Shown: positions 23,108 to 51,338 of the stretch, one piece after another
Layout of the letters: every line of letters begins with the position of its first letter
How positions within the stretch are numbered: position 1 is the first letter of the stretch
DNA from: Adlercreutzia hattorii
GTDB taxonomy: Bacteria; Actinomycetota; Coriobacteriia; Coriobacteriales; Eggerthellaceae
Assembly: GCF_011405655.1 (NCBI RefSeq)
Contig: NZ_AP022829.1
Coordinates: forward strand, 1-64,000
Reading direction: 5' to 3'
DNA: 64,000 nt
Position numbers and translations under genes: made by a program
The notes under the pieces: model-generated
The model's database searches: none
What the model was told of the DNA's origin: nothing
Seen by the model: the letters and a program-made list of their open reading frames with translations, nothing else

Positions 23108-23171
23108 TTAATACTCGACCAGGCTGTAGGTGTCGATGGATTGGCGCTGGTGCATGATGCGGTACACCGTA
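23108..23171 (-). pseudogene. 64-bp copy of the RelE-type toxin 3' end
   Basis: These 64 bases match 24682-24745, the last 20 codons and stop of the toxin gene, with three mismatches. The encoded end reads YRIMHQRQSIDTYSLVEY, against LIEY in the intact gene. The copy stops exactly one base before the stop codon of the DUF4143 ATPase gene, so that gene and its upstream repeats lie between two direct copies. Confidence 0.9.
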
Positions 23172-24479
23172 TCAGTCTGCCAGCGCCCTGAGGGGCACGA
23201 CGTAAATGCCCTCTTCCACTTCTCTAGCATACGAGCCAATGCCGGTTATCACACAGAGGAACTCTGGAGGACGCCCCTGCGCTCGTGGGTTTTCTGCAAC
23301 TTTCTTCCGCAGCCGCCTGAGAGATTTCACCGCATCGGGAACCTTCTCTTCGCTGAGCTTGAACTCGAAGGCGGCCCATCTACCATCCAGGGTCTCTATG
23401 ACAGCATCGGCCTCTAACCCCGAATCGTCCCGATAGTAGTAAACAGCCGCCGGCATCGAAGGATCCATCGCCTGGGCGTATACCTTGAGATCGCGAATGC
23501 AAAGATTCTCGAAAACAAGACCGAAGGTCTGCCCATCCGCGAGGAGGGAATCCGGCGAAAGCAATAGCAGGGCGGCGGCCAACGACGGATCGGCGAAGTA
23601 GCGCTTCGGCTTCGTCGCTAGGCGCTTTTTTGAGCGCTTTGGCGGCACCCAGCCCGGCACCTCCTCGACAAGGTAGATCGAGCGAAGAAACTCCAGATAC
23701 GAGGCGAGCGTCTGCTCGGTTACGAGGGATGATGGATTGTCCTCTCCGCCGTACATATCGCTGATGATGGTCTTGTAGGTTGGAGACTGTCCCAAATTGC
23801 GGGCAATCGACAAGCACAACCGACGGGCCACCTCTCCACTCTTGCCATGTTTAGGAGCACTCTTTTCGAAAACAAGACGCAGATATTCTCTTGCAACGAG
23901 CTGACCGTTTTCAGCGGAAAGATCGAGGGCTTCGGGCCATCCCCCACGGCAGATCAACTCAGCTAGCTGACGCGTATCGTTTTCAACTTTCGCTGGCTGA
24001 AACCGGTGAGCGAATAGACCGCGGAGCGAGACAGAACGTTCAGACTCCCCAGACTCGGCCAAGCTGAAGGGATACATCCTCACAGAGCCAATCCGACCCG
24101 CACCACTATGCCTGCTCTGGCCCTCTTGGTCATCGGACGAGATCGGGGTGGACGACCCAGTCAGCAGCCACGCTCCCCTTAACCCCCGCTCGTCATCTAT
24201 GGCATGACGAACTGCATTCCAAATCGCAGGCGCAAGCTGCCATTCGTCTATAACGTGGGGGCGATCGCCTATGAGCATGAGTTTTGGGTCGGCACGAGCC
24301 ATGTCCAACTCTTCATCCACATAGCTGACGCTTTGCGCGTGGGCCAAAGCCGTCCACGTCTTTCCGCACCACTTCGTACCAGCCACCTCTACGGCCCCGA
24401 AGACCTCGAGATAGCGCTCTATTTGCTCGTCCACAAGACGCGGCAGATATCCATTCTTTACAAGCGTTTTCCGAGGCAT
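23172..24479 (-). CDS. AAA ATPase with DUF4143 domain (first of two)
   Basis: The 435-residue protein has an N-terminal P-loop domain (GTKWCGKTWTA as Walker A, PHVIDEWQLAP as Walker B region, WLLTGSST as the sensor strand). A linker region with a helix-turn-helix-like stretch follows, then the C-terminal DUF4143 domain (RYFADPSLAAALL, FENLCIRDLKVY, YYYRDDSGLEADAVIE, WAAFEFKLS). The last blocks resemble a nuclease fold, but activity is unproven. Proteins of this family are widespread and poorly understood, and often sit with mobile DNA. The gene stands alone between direct repeats of a toxin 3' end and has 23-bp tandem repeats 60 bases upstream. A paralogue lies at 49639. Its first codons include CTCGGAAAAC, the core of those repeats. 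Confidence 0.9.
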   Translation of the reverse strand: MPRKTLVKNGYLPRLVDEQIERYLEVFGAVEVAGTKWCGKTWTALAHAQSVSYVDEELDMARADPKLMLIGDRPHVIDEWQLAPAIWNAVRHAIDDERGLRGAWLLTGSSTPISSDDQEGQSRHSGAGRIGSVRMYPFSLAESGESERSVSLRGLFAHRFQPAKVENDTRQLAELICRGGWPEALDLSAENGQLVAREYLRLVFEKSAPKHGKSGEVARRLCLSIARNLGQSPTYKTIISDMYGGEDNPSSLVTEQTLASYLEFLRSIYLVEEVPGWVPPKRSKKRLATKPKRYFADPSLAAALLLLSPDSLLADGQTFGLVFENLCIRDLKVYAQAMDPSMPAAVYYYRDDSGLEADAVIETLDGRWAAFEFKLSEEKVPDAVKSLRRLRKKVAENPRAQGRPPEFLCVITGIGSYAREVEEGIYVVPLRALAD

Positions 24480-24539: not shown

Positions 24540-24606
24540 ATTCATGGTTTTCCGAGTTTTTGATTCATGGTTTTCCGAGTTTTTGATTCATGTTTTTCCG
24601 AGTTTG
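24540..24606. repeat. Three tandem ~23-bp repeats upstream of the DUF4143 ATPase
   Basis: Units start at 24540, 24563 and 24586, each containing TTCATGG(or T)TTTTCCGAGTTT. The first two are identical and the third has small changes. On the gene's strand the core reads CTCGGAAAAC. They lie 61-127 bases before the start codon, a suitable place for an operator or for sites recognised by the gene product. Confidence 0.88.
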
Positions 24607-24681
24607 ATCGGTTGAGGGTTGATTGAGATCAACTGTTTTCGAATTATACCTTGGCAACCTATACTGATTCTGGATTGAGTG

Positions 24682-24993
24682 TTAATACTCAATCAGGCTG
24701 TAGGTGTCGATGGATTGGCGCTGATGCATGATGCGGTACACCGTAAGCGTAGTGGCATTGTAACGGTAGTAGATGATGTAGGGGCCCGCAAGCGTCGTGC
24801 GGTACTCGTGCTCGAGATGGTCGTCGGTAAAGTGGCCGCCGGCGTCCGGAAAGGTTCGTACGGTTTCCAAAGCCGCATCGATACCCTTTATCGCATCGAG
24901 GGCCGCCTGGGGCATTCCCCGCTCGAGGCCGAGGTAAATGGCGATGGACTCCCGATCGAGCTGCGCCCGCGGACGCCATGCAAGATCAAGCAT
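24682..24993 (-). CDS. RelE/ParE-family toxin
   Basis: The 103-residue basic protein has the ParE/RelE layout: AWRPRAQLDRESIAIYL, the GGHFTDD turn, EYRTTLAGPYIIYYRY and a final VYRIMHQRQSID. It should be an mRNA interferase or gyrase-directed toxin. The start ATG 24993 lies eight bases inside the antitoxin gene, so the two are translationally coupled; a longer upstream frame is only the antitoxin read out of frame. Its last 20 codons are duplicated at 23108. Confidence 0.88.
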   Translation of the reverse strand: MLDLAWRPRAQLDRESIAIYLGLERGMPQAALDAIKGIDAALETVRTFPDAGGHFTDDHLEHEYRTTLAGPYIIYYRYNATTLTVYRIMHQRQSIDTYSLIEY

Positions 24994-46503: not shown

Positions 46504-47703
46504 ATGACATATCTCGACCTCCGCAAGGCCTTTCACGACCCCGCGCAAGATGCGGATCAGCTATACGATCGCCGATTCAACGATGAGCGCACCTGGCATC
46601 TCAAAACGTCTATCGCCGGTAGTCCCGCCTTTGTCTACATGGCTCCGGAAATCTACGAAGCCCTGCTCGAAGCTGCTCAAATCGACAAAGATATCCTTCG
46701 CCTGGAAGCCGCGCTTCCCCAGCGAGCCCTCGATAGCTACCGTGACAGCTGCCTTATCGACGAAATCGTGCTGACCAATGAAATAGAAGGTGTGCACTCA
46801 ACGCGGCGCGAAATAGGCGAGGTGCTCGAGCGCCTGAAGCAAAATGATCGCCGTGGGCGTTTTTTCGGTATTGTTCAAAAGTATGCTCTCCTCCAGACGC
46901 GACCGGACATCGCCCTTCGAACCTGCGCCGATGTGCGTGATGTCTACGACGACCTTGTGCTGGCAGAGGTTCGCATCTCGGATCCCCACAACGTCCCCGA
47001 TGGCACCTACTTTCGCACTAAAATGATGCATGTGATCAACGAGGCAGGCATCCCCATCCACGACGGAATCGAACCCGAGGCAAGGATCATAGAGGAGATG
47101 GATCAGGCTCTTGACGTCCTCAACGACGAGTCACGAGAGCCTCTTCTCCGCATTGCTCTTTTCCACTTCCTTTTTGGTTACATACACCCTTTCTACGATG
47201 GCAATGGAAGAACAAATCGCTTCATTAGCAGCTATCTCATCTCCCGCCAATACGAGCCTATCGTGGGATTGGGCATCTCCTACGCCGTAAAGCAGGAGAT
47301 TGAAAAATACTATAAGGCCTTTTCTCGGTGCGAGCACCCCCTCAATAGAGGCGATATCACGCCTTTTGTCATCGCTTTCTCAGAGATATGCGTGAATGCG
47401 ATGTGCAATCTTCGCGATGCTCTCACAGAAAAGAAAAGCCAGATGGATATGTATCTCCATCGCTCGGCCGTGCTTGTCCCAGAACCGCTGCGCACCCTTG
47501 TCGAATCGCTTATCACCGCCACGCTGTTCACCTTTGACGGCGTAACCGCAAAAGAGCTTTGTGAGGCTGAGCGTCTCTCCCGGCAGACGCTTTATAAGCG
47601 TCTGTCCGAGCTGAGAAAACTCGGCCTCTTGCAAGAGGAGAAGATAGGGCGAAAGGTATTCTACAAACTCAACGAGGAGGCCTTCCTTCTGAGAGGATGC
47701 TGA
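46504..47703 (+). CDS. Fic-domain AMP-transferase with inhibitory helix and winged helix
   Basis: The 399-residue protein has the class II inhibitory motif T-x-x-x-E-G (TNEIEGVHSTR, Thr91 to Gly96) and the full catalytic loop HPFYDGNGRTNR with His228. A C-terminal winged helix (about 330-399, AKELCEAERLSRQTLYKRLSELRKLGLL) completes it. It should transfer AMP to a hydroxyl of a target protein, held inactive by its own helix, and may repress its own gene through the winged helix. The start is ATG 46504, with AGAAGG nearby. The gene is flanked by ~107-bp direct repeats that contain an inverted-repeat operator. Lower GC than its neighbours by eye suggests transfer. Confidence 0.92.
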   Translation: MTYLDLRKAFHDPAQDADQLYDRRFNDERTWHLKTSIAGSPAFVYMAPEIYEALLEAAQIDKDILRLEAALPQRALDSYRDSCLIDEIVLTNEIEGVHSTRREIGEVLERLKQNDRRGRFFGIVQKYALLQTRPDIALRTCADVRDVYDDLVLAEVRISDPHNVPDGTYFRTKMMHVINEAGIPIHDGIEPEARIIEEMDQALDVLNDESREPLLRIALFHFLFGYIHPFYDGNGRTNRFISSYLISRQYEPIVGLGISYAVKQEIEKYYKAFSRCEHPLNRGDITPFVIAFSEICVNAMCNLRDALTEKKSQMDMYLHRSAVLVPEPLRTLVESLITATLFTFDGVTAKELCEAERLSRQTLYKRLSELRKLGLLQEEKIGRKVFYKLNEEAFLLRGC

Positions 47704-49509: not shown

Positions 49510-49638
49510 GGGCGTTCCTCCTTTCTGGAAAGCCCATGGTACCGTGCGAAACGAAGAGCGATCTCCTCATCAATTCACCTGGCATCAAGCTGTTGTTTCA
49601 ACCGCTTTGCCTGCAATAGAGAAGCAGGTAGAAAACCG

Positions 49639-50910
49639 TCACGCGCCTAATACCGCCAAAGGAACGACGAACACGCCGTCTTCCCGATAGTAGCTATAGT
49701 CGCCAACCGCAGTAAGCACCATGAGGAACGACGGCGATCCCGTGGTCGAAACATCTATCTTGTTGCGCAGACTCAAGAGGCTCTTCGCCCCTTCGTCGAC
49801 AAGCGATTCTCCACCCAGCTTCACTTCCACCAATCCATAGGCTCCGTTATGCAAATGGATGACTGCATCTGCCTCTAAGCCAGAACGATCTCGATAGTGA
49901 TACACCTCGCCTCCTAGCGCATCGGCATATACGCGCAGATCACGTAAGCACATCGTCTCGAACAAAAGGCCAAATGTGTTCAGATCGGCCATAAGGTCTC
50001 CCGGACCAAGCGCCAAAGCAGCTGCGGCAATAGAGGGATCAACGAAGTGTCTCGTAGGAGCAGTCCGGACAGCTGTTTTCGAACGCAAATTAGGATTCCA
50101 AGCAAGGAGATCCTCTAGAACAAAAATTTGTTCCAGCGCACGAATGTAGTCGCGCACCGTACTTTCACTTGCCTGCACTCCCTGCGCATTTACATCGGCC
50201 AGCATTTCGGTAACTTTCCCTTGCGATGCTGAAAAGCGCGCGTAAGAACGCAGCAATGCACGAGCCACACGAGGATTGCGCTCTTTTTCGTCCACGCGGG
50301 ACACGTCTGAGTTTATCACGCCGTCCAGGTAATCGGGCGCTTGCAGCAGCGCCGATTCATCGTCCAGACCCACGGCGCGAGGCCATCCCCCTCGGCAAAG
50401 TAAAAAGGCCATGTGTTCCAAGCTGCACTCAGATCGCGCAATGGGAACCTGCTCTCCAGCGAACAAAGCGCTCAGAGATACCGCACCTGTTGAATCTCCC
50501 GACTCGTAAAGACTCATGGGACGCATTTTCATACGAGCGATGCGCCCAGTACCGGTATGGCTCATTTTCTTAGGATCAGGGGGAACCGCCGAACCCGTCA
50601 GAATGAACTGTCCGAACTCTTCTCTATGGTCAACTTTGAACCGAACTGCGTCCCACAGTTGCGGAGCAAGCTGCCACTCGTCGATGAGACGCGGCGTGGC
50701 GCCCCTCAGCAATTCAAGAGGAGCGATCTCCGCAAGGCGAATGTTCTGCGCCTTGGTGCTCGGGTCCTGCAGGTATATCGCACTCTCAGCAAGCCTCTCG
50801 CATGTAGTGGTCTTGCCGCACCACTTAGCCCCCTCGACCAGAACGGCGCCTTTCGCTCTTACACGTTTTTTAAGCAATGGGTCGTATATTCTAGGTAGAT
50901 ACTCACGCAT
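49639..50910 (-). CDS. AAA ATPase with DUF4143 domain (second of two)
   Basis: The 423-residue protein has the same layout as the one at 23172: P-loop GAKWCGKTTTCERLA, PRLIDEWQLAP, FILTGSAVPPDPKKM, then DUF4143 (RHFVDPSIAAAAL, FETMCLRDLRVYADAL, YHYRDRSGLEADAVIH, YGLVEVKLGG). ATG 50910 fits the family N-terminus (REYLPRIYD); an in-frame TTG at 50922 lies closer to AAGGAG and is possible. Four 23-bp repeats lie about 50-130 bases upstream. The nuclease-like end and the repeats suggest a DNA-directed function, not established. Sequence divergence from the other copy shows they are not a recent duplication. Confidence 0.9.
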   Translation of the reverse strand: MREYLPRIYDPLLKKRVRAKGAVLVEGAKWCGKTTTCERLAESAIYLQDPSTKAQNIRLAEIAPLELLRGATPRLIDEWQLAPQLWDAVRFKVDHREEFGQFILTGSAVPPDPKKMSHTGTGRIARMKMRPMSLYESGDSTGAVSLSALFAGEQVPIARSECSLEHMAFLLCRGGWPRAVGLDDESALLQAPDYLDGVINSDVSRVDEKERNPRVARALLRSYARFSASQGKVTEMLADVNAQGVQASESTVRDYIRALEQIFVLEDLLAWNPNLRSKTAVRTAPTRHFVDPSIAAAALALGPGDLMADLNTFGLLFETMCLRDLRVYADALGGEVYHYRDRSGLEADAVIHLHNGAYGLVEVKLGGESLVDEGAKSLLSLRNKIDVSTTGSPSFLMVLTAVGDYSYYREDGVFVVPLAVLGA

Positions 50911-50958
50911 TCTTGACCCCAATTCACTCCTTATCGAAGGATAACTTGAACAGGTATT

Positions 50959-51043
50959 TTATCAGTTTTGGTAAGTTTACGTTACTACTTTTGGTAAATT
51001 CCTGTTACTAGTTTTGGTAAATTCCTGTTACTAGTTTTGGCAA
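50959..51043. repeat. Four tandem 23-bp repeats upstream of the second DUF4143 ATPase
   Basis: Units start at 50959, 50982, 51005 and 51028 (last one partial) and share TTACTAGTTTTGGTAAATTC. The period equals that of the array at 24540, and both unit types contain AGTTTT, but the rest differs. The 51044-51338 stretch that follows, before fhaA, has no other feature I can identify. Confidence 0.9.
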
Positions 51044-51338
51044 TCGGTCAAGCAGGTCAAGCACAAGGTCCCGGCGAAGGAATTTCGGGGGTGCGCGCGG
51101 TACCAAACCCTGTCGTTTTGCCCAAACTCTGGCGCGTTATTTCCGCGGTCGGGCCATCCTGCAAGGCCAATCGAACAAAATTGTCACTGTGGCAATTAAG
51201 TAAAATGGTTGGTCGATGAGGTGCGTGCATAGGTTTTATGGCAAAATAAGCTGCTGTGCTACTGAACGCTGCACCGAAAGCGCAGCGCAACCACGCAAGA
51301 AGAACGCAGCTTAAACACGCAAGAACAAGGAGAAGCAC

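Follow-up and report, generated by a model that had tools for sequence, protein, structure and literature searches.

Direct repeats of about 22 bp, the iterons, lie on plasmids beside the gene of a DNA-binding initiator, and autoregulation is a common theme in these systems. Toxin-antitoxin repressors and the C proteins of restriction-modification systems are encoded in portable modules that likewise have their own operator beside their own promoter. The candidate phage-defence system PDC-S01 has been described as an ATPase joined to a domain of the PD-(D/E)XK type; according to the accessible sections of the source it ranks fourth in frequency among the defences of all prokaryotes, most candidates of this kind still awaiting validation (PMC12988326). 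PDC-S01 is also reported, in the accessible part of a rumen study, to be found in rumen genomes more often than any other individual locus, with 10,358 occurrences (PMC13356809), and one table row of a Thermus study, likewise accessible in part, has a gene with AAA_14 and DUF4143 domains up 6.6-fold with a plasmid present in an Argonaute-bearing strain (PMC4406477). In its accessible sections PMC12988326 has no mention of tandem or direct repeats, iterons, promoters, operators or autoregulation, and describes PDC-S27 as an ATPase with a PD-(D/E)XK domain, a similar domain plan.

The window that we analysed, the first 64,000 nucleotides of contig NZ_AP022829.1 of Adlercreutzia hattorii, contains two genes of this abundant phage-defence candidate, and the feature added here is an array of direct repeats in front of each. 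No description of such arrays was found in the literature searched, which comprised titles and abstract openings, most subscription papers and preprints lying outside it. The likeness to iterons and their initiators consists of direct repeats of similar size adjoining the gene of a presumed DNA binder, whereas here the genes lie on a 2.9-Mb contig, have no match to a Rep family, occur as many paralogues per genome and include other clades with periods of 32-33 and about 40 bp. Compared with toxin-antitoxin and C-protein autoregulators, the presumed regulator would here be the ATPase-nuclease itself; a separate regulator gene does not fit, since the gap from array to start measures just 47 and 60 bases at the two window loci.

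In front of the first gene, four TTTACCAAAACTAGTAAC-type boxes follow each other at exact 23-bp steps (Table 1), the box closest to the gene having four differences from the unit pattern that matches the three others. The array (50958-51044) lies 48-134 bases upstream of the ATG at 50910 on the minus strand, which bears out the claim of the earlier note that four units of period 23 are found 50-130 bases upstream. Tandem Repeats Finder (TRF) reported period 23, 3.3 copies, 88% matches and a score of 119 for 50964-51040, and the self-alignment score of the array was 44, whereas none of 300 dinucleotide shuffles exceeded 12. The second gene was said to have an array of equal period and different unit, and this was confirmed (24540-24608); the equal period is explained by both genes belonging to the same 23-bp subfamily. 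A consensus scan of the upstream regions of both genes yielded no sigma-70 promoter. Two 24-nt direct repeats at 51281-51328 (CGCAGC..AA.CACGCAAGAA), in front of an FhaA-like gene, are unrelated to the arrays.

Table 1. Features of the two DUF4143 loci in the window (positions of the 64,000-nucleotide stretch; residue numbers refer to the protein of the first gene).
Feature	Position	Strand	Basis
DUF4143/AAA_14 ATPase gene (PDC-S01-like)	49639..50910	-	423 aa from ATG
C-terminal domain with ExD...ExK, PD-(D/E)XK-like, residues 310-420	49651..49983	-	conserved residues
Predicted winged helix, residues 211-290, presumed recognition helix 249-261	50041..50280	-	model secondary structure, assignment inferred
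AAA/STAND-like ATPase core, residues 20-165	50416..50853	-	AlphaFold model and fold matches
Array box 4, CTTACCAAAACTGATAAA, closest to gene	50958..50975	-	read from sequence
Array box 3, TTTACCAAAAGTAGTAAC	50981..50998	-	pattern match
Array box 2, TTTACCAAAACTAGTAAC	51004..51021	-	pattern match
Array box 1, ATTGCCAAAACTAGTAAC	51027..51044	-	pattern match
Gene and array missing from otherwise matching locus of close relative L258 (approximate ends)	49595..51170	.	
Second DUF4143/AAA_14 ATPase gene	23172..24479	-	
Own 23-bp array of second gene, 3 units, other sequence	24540..24608	-	
64-bp repeat, distal copy, directly after DUF4143 stop	23108..23171	-	
64-bp repeat, proximal copy, 3' end of ParE-like gene	24682..24745	-	

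The arrays are not limited to these two genes. The A. hattorii genome contains 15 DUF4143 genes, 13 of which had an array score with p <= 0.0066 (300 shuffles), the weak cases being L001 (0.027), which has a dyad in place of an array, and L009 (0.023); under the stricter score of at least 14, which we call a strong array, 12 of the 15 were counted. The lag between repeats was 22-23 at six genes with a KWCGKT-like P-loop (L005-L008, L010 and L011), 32-33 at six of the seven with an RQVGKT-like P-loop (the exception being L009) and 40 at the gene with an RRCGKS-like P-loop. L004 also has, further upstream of its 33-bp array, a second and different repeat of about 40 bp (CTAAGTTTTACTAAGGAGTT-like).

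A larger set of genes was collected on the basis of the protein, through its family or its motifs, and without regard to arrays. From the genus and family it took those loci of each genome that scored best. To these were added 80 named loci from different phyla (the best 80 of 573 listed), 30 loci chosen from 146 matches in nine other genomes, and stretches taken from some genomes; the sampled genes are the top-scoring loci of a genome or of the matches listed, a subset of the DUF4143 genes. After 22 of 267 model matches with no nearby P-loop or less than half of the model had been dropped, 245 were left, of which 233 genes remained upon duplicate removal and 230 had upstream sequence (two of the 233 were dropped by length for the count of period by P-loop). 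A strong array was found near the start of 155 of the 230 genes. In equal control windows taken from these loci, strong arrays were present in 14 of 218 lying further upstream and in 31 of 224 downstream. The counts are not independent events, because related genes share arrays by descent, and one array common to a head-to-head gene pair appears in them twice. Near the start the lags were piled up at 21-24 (36 genes), 31-34 (102) and 39-42 bp (15), with two others, whereas those in the control windows were scattered. The rate was 12/15 in the A. hattorii genome itself, 16/26 in the genus, 11/25 in the family, 62/77 for the named loci, 14/25 in the nine genomes and 40/62 in the stretches. The 31-34-bp arrays of the named loci (59/77 strong, 10 weak) came from seven named phyla, of which two are archaeal; the only Chloroflexota gene had neither a strong nor a weak one. 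The median distance from array end to first ATG was 30-41 nt in the four main classes (starts guessed).

Some genomes have 29-32 DUF4143 matches. Two genomes rich in these genes show the same feature, with strong arrays of mostly different units at 19/30 genes of a Bacilli MAG and at 24/31 of a Methanomassiliicoccales archaeon. DUF4143 paralogues were also seen clustered as neighbours (L180, L182, L183 and L184 in G052; L212 in G030). Six records picked from other collections (four of seven phage and two of 61 plasmid records opened) all had the expected period, 23 in four and 32 in two; the phage records may be bacterial DNA, since they are short and marked unverified. Three exact unit patterns (18-22 bases) had no matches each in viral contigs, a search that diverged sites would escape.

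A further finding was that the period follows the clade of the encoded protein, in bacteria and archaea, being about 23, 32-33 or 39-42 bp. On a tree of 231 proteins (152 labelled rows) the period class changes nine times, against a mean of 45.4 and a minimum of 41 in 100 shuffles of the labels, and prediction from the nearest clade was correct in 141 of 152 cases, the 11 mispredictions including five of the 15 genes of the 40-bp class, which were called 33. Sorted by P-loop pattern, 22 of 27 class-A arrays had a period of 23, as did all eight GPRQSGK arrays; 92 of 97 class-B arrays had 33, and only 10 of 17 class-C arrays had 40. The class-A pattern, which also served for the correlations with protein segments and for the distances from array to start, catches some G.RQCGK or G.RQTGK proteins of the 33-bp type as well, so that a few rows are misfiled; the tree-based test is independent of it. 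The lag is conserved while the spacers between the cores diverge; the contrast of core with spacer is partly built in, since the core was picked for agreement.

Genes that lack a strong array often have another element in its place. In the 33-bp clade a weak array of 31-34 bp was found at 22 of 31 such genes tested (p<0.05; other lag ranges gave 1 and 0), and weak arrays at the class lag were seen at only 2/22 array-less genes of the 23-bp clade and 2/21 of the 39-42-bp clade. An inverted repeat with a score of at least 10 precedes 21 of 22 array-less genes of the 23-bp clade, as against 6 of 21 far controls, the dyad arms being 18-25 bp apart, centre to centre, in 16 of the 22; in the 40-bp clade an inverted repeat was found at 11/22 array-less genes versus 0/19 far controls. 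Any element, that is a strong array, a weak 33-class array or a dyad of score 12, was present in 207/228 near, 33/216 far and 67/224 downstream windows, the weak-array rule covering near windows only and dyads possibly being terminators. The earlier note had named two findings that would speak against it, arrays absent from most homologues and arrays shared by unrelated genes. The former does not agree with the rates given above; as to the latter, strong arrays were found at 34 of 44 DUF4143 genes but at seven of 69 other genes of the same stretches, at least two of which face a DUF4143 gene and share its array (by eye). Of the PDC-S27 loci only 3/23 have arrays, with scattered lags and none in common, which rules out the array as a trait of any ATPase with a PD-(D/E)XK domain. 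AT-rich repeats or dyads were observed before the start of the PDC-S27 genes L247, L253 and L256.

We also found that the units of the two window genes are private. Searched in its own genome with up to three mismatches, the unit of the first gene matched three of its own boxes and one other site (L223, G000:C1:2727321-2727338, three mismatches), which adjoins the 3' end of the paralogue L011, and that of the second gene matched its own three boxes only. The repeats adjoin their own start, and their privacy was seen for these two units in this one genome. Among 96 class-B genes, at least 10 of the 12 core bases agreed in 9/10 pairs of proteins more than 80% identical, in 25/64 pairs at 60-80%, in 39/187 at 50-60% and in 32/4299 below 50% identity, and in none of 261 pairs above 50% when the core was compared in reverse orientation. 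Paralogues within a genome, none of these pairs being more than 63% identical, reached this agreement in 2/100 class-B and 0/31 class-A pairs. The motif GAAAA was present in the gene sense in 58 of 102 units of the 33-bp class and as reverse complement in 12 (shuffled mean 24), an enrichment that gives the array a preferred orientation relative to the gene. The notion of co-evolving pairs of protein and DNA, put forward in the earlier note, holds insofar as units are kept in the same orientation in close homologues, differ between paralogues and have a period that follows the clade; a function as operators or iterons is putative. The expected correlation between unit and predicted DNA-binding segment was not demonstrated, the winged helix being no better a predictor than other protein segments: partial correlations in class B were 0.112 for the middle segment (0/300 permutations), 0.048 for the winged helix (17/300), 0.047 for the nuclease (28/300) and 0.013 for the ATPase (115/300), and in class A no segment fell below 27/300.

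Both window proteins matched Pfam PF13173 (AAA_14) and PF13635 (DUF4143), with 52.5 and 102.1 bits for the first and 38 and 104.9 bits for the second (cut-offs 27 and 28.1); at E up to 0.001 these were the only Pfam matches and no replication-initiator (Rep) family was among them, nor did NCBIfam match either protein. The PADLOC models for PDC-S01 matched both (7.2e-63 and 2e-60), as well as all 65 class-B proteins scanned (alignment A4). AlphaFold models had a pLDDT of 95.6 for the first window protein and 94.7 for L012, and show the order ATPase core, helical middle, winged helix and C-terminal domain. In the latter E346, E362 and K364 are invariant and D348 nearly so in a mixed set of 64 sequences, as are E364, E379, K381 and D366, respectively, in the class-B set of 65. 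D...ExK is the active-site motif of PD-(D/E)XK nucleases, and the C-terminal domain is, by its kept active-site residues, PD-(D/E)XK-like and a predicted nuclease. The first PDB matches in Foldseek were SSO1545, PABY2304 and Cdc6/Orc1 on origin DNA; the first ten included, at low TM-score, Cdn1 and Card1, which we take to be ancillary CRISPR nucleases, and the list also contained 8bob of the maltose system, presumably MalT. In VIA-align, a comparison that covers about residues 1-300 and barely the C-terminal part, Z was 15.0 for PABY2304 (2qen), 13.2 for SSO1545 (2fna) and about 11-12 for NLRs and CED-4. The models therefore point to a STAND-like ATPase fold over the NTPase and winged-helix domains; this fold is shared, over about residues 1-300, with STAND ATPases such as SSO1545, PABY2304, CED-4/Apaf-1, NLRs and MalT, whereas the extra PD-(D/E)XK-like domain and the DNA repeats before the own gene set the present proteins apart. 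The matches listed from a viral structure library were general AAA proteins only.

Gene and array can be absent together. One of eight relatives compared (L258) keeps both flanks of the first locus and lacks a stretch of about 1.58 kb with the gene and its array; two others (L264 and L265) keep the left flank, with other sequence in between, and five share the right flank only. The second gene is flanked by two copies of a 64-bp repeat, 61 of 64 positions being identical. The relative L270 has a ParE-like gene, whose matching part contains one stop, and other sequence after it; at the three sites where the repeat copies differ, L270 has the distal base twice and the proximal base once (by eye). 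Flanking repeats with a score of at least 20 were found at 25 of 237 DUF4143 genes and at 4 of 177 other genes, as against none of 442 mismatched flank pairs, although several of the 25 resemble terminators or dispersed repeats (by eye). A SoFic-like Fic gene in the window (46504-47703), of a PADLOC defence family, has an imperfect flanking direct repeat of 79 nt, and in L015 (2154-3162) an ADP-ribosylglycohydrolase gene directly follows a DUF4143 gene and is itself followed by a partial copy of the latter's 3' end. Since SoFic and ADP-ribosylglycohydrolase genes have similar flanking repeats, the insertion route may be general, as if such single-gene cassettes shared a route that duplicates neighbouring sequence.

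In our opinion these observations are best explained, with good though not full confidence, by a self-insulated portable cassette, the product of which would bind the array in front of its gene and so repress its own synthesis. Such a cassette would encode a STAND-like ATPase to which a winged helix and a nuclease domain of PD-(D/E)XK-like type are joined, and would have its own operator in front. The protein would bind its own units, a single protomer on each and the next one beside it along the DNA, and the architecture of the subfamily would set the distance between bound protomers; on this proposal that distance accounts for a period of 23, 32-33 or about 40 bp depending on the clade, while the sequence can vary freely. 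Binding beside the start would repress the gene and hold a potentially harmful nuclease low, and private sequences would stop co-resident paralogues from silencing each other, so that the cassette would work wherever it lands. A role in defence would come from release or activation upon invasion. An extension, which we regard as rather unlikely, is that these genes are minimal portable elements with a single protein as ATPase, sequence-specific DNA binder and nuclease, and that the array is an address read by this protein that sets both silence in the host and the target, which may be iteron-like sites of invaders or rival cassettes.

Alternatively, the array may be an iteron- or end-like working site where the ATPase-nuclease comes together in order to mobilise, copy or home its cassette, a reading to which we give a small chance. 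The joint absence of gene and array as one stretch in L258, the 64-bp repeat around the other cassette, the excess of flanking repeats over other genes and the resemblance of the fold to initiators and, at a lower level, to the MuB ATPase are in line with it. However, the array is present on the 5' side only, 212 of 237 genes have no such flanking repeat, several of the remaining 25 look like terminators or dispersed repeats, and similar repeats are found at SoFic and ADP-ribosylglycohydrolase genes; there is also no room for an integrase, since the cassettes of about 1.5 kb in the window are nearly filled by the DUF4143 gene. Binding by a regulator of the host rather than by the encoded protein would be compatible with the arrays as such, their binder being deduced indirectly, yet it appears improbable, given that units differ between paralogues of the same genome in nearly all pairs, that the two units tested are private and that the period tracks the clade of the encoded protein across phyla. 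Some arrays are near-perfect (L109 and L199), as neutral tandem duplication by slippage would produce; this origin is nevertheless hardly credible, for the lags near the start pile up where those in controls are scattered, the lag is kept despite diverged spacers between the cores, and presence depends on the gene family. Slippage or chance was rejected on the basis of the shuffles and of the control windows of these loci.

The self-repressing cassette remains the preferred reading, and it implies that each promoter displays the DNA which the protein of its gene presumably binds. The arrays would then form a natural series of protein/DNA pairs in which specificity changes while geometry is fixed. 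If the reading of addresses should be true, the dozens of paralogues per genome would constitute a repertoire of addresses with a fixed pitch per clade. The array is, in addition, a sequence signature that can be used for annotation. Most sampled members of a very common candidate defence family have a cis element private to the gene, the pitch of which is specific to the clade.
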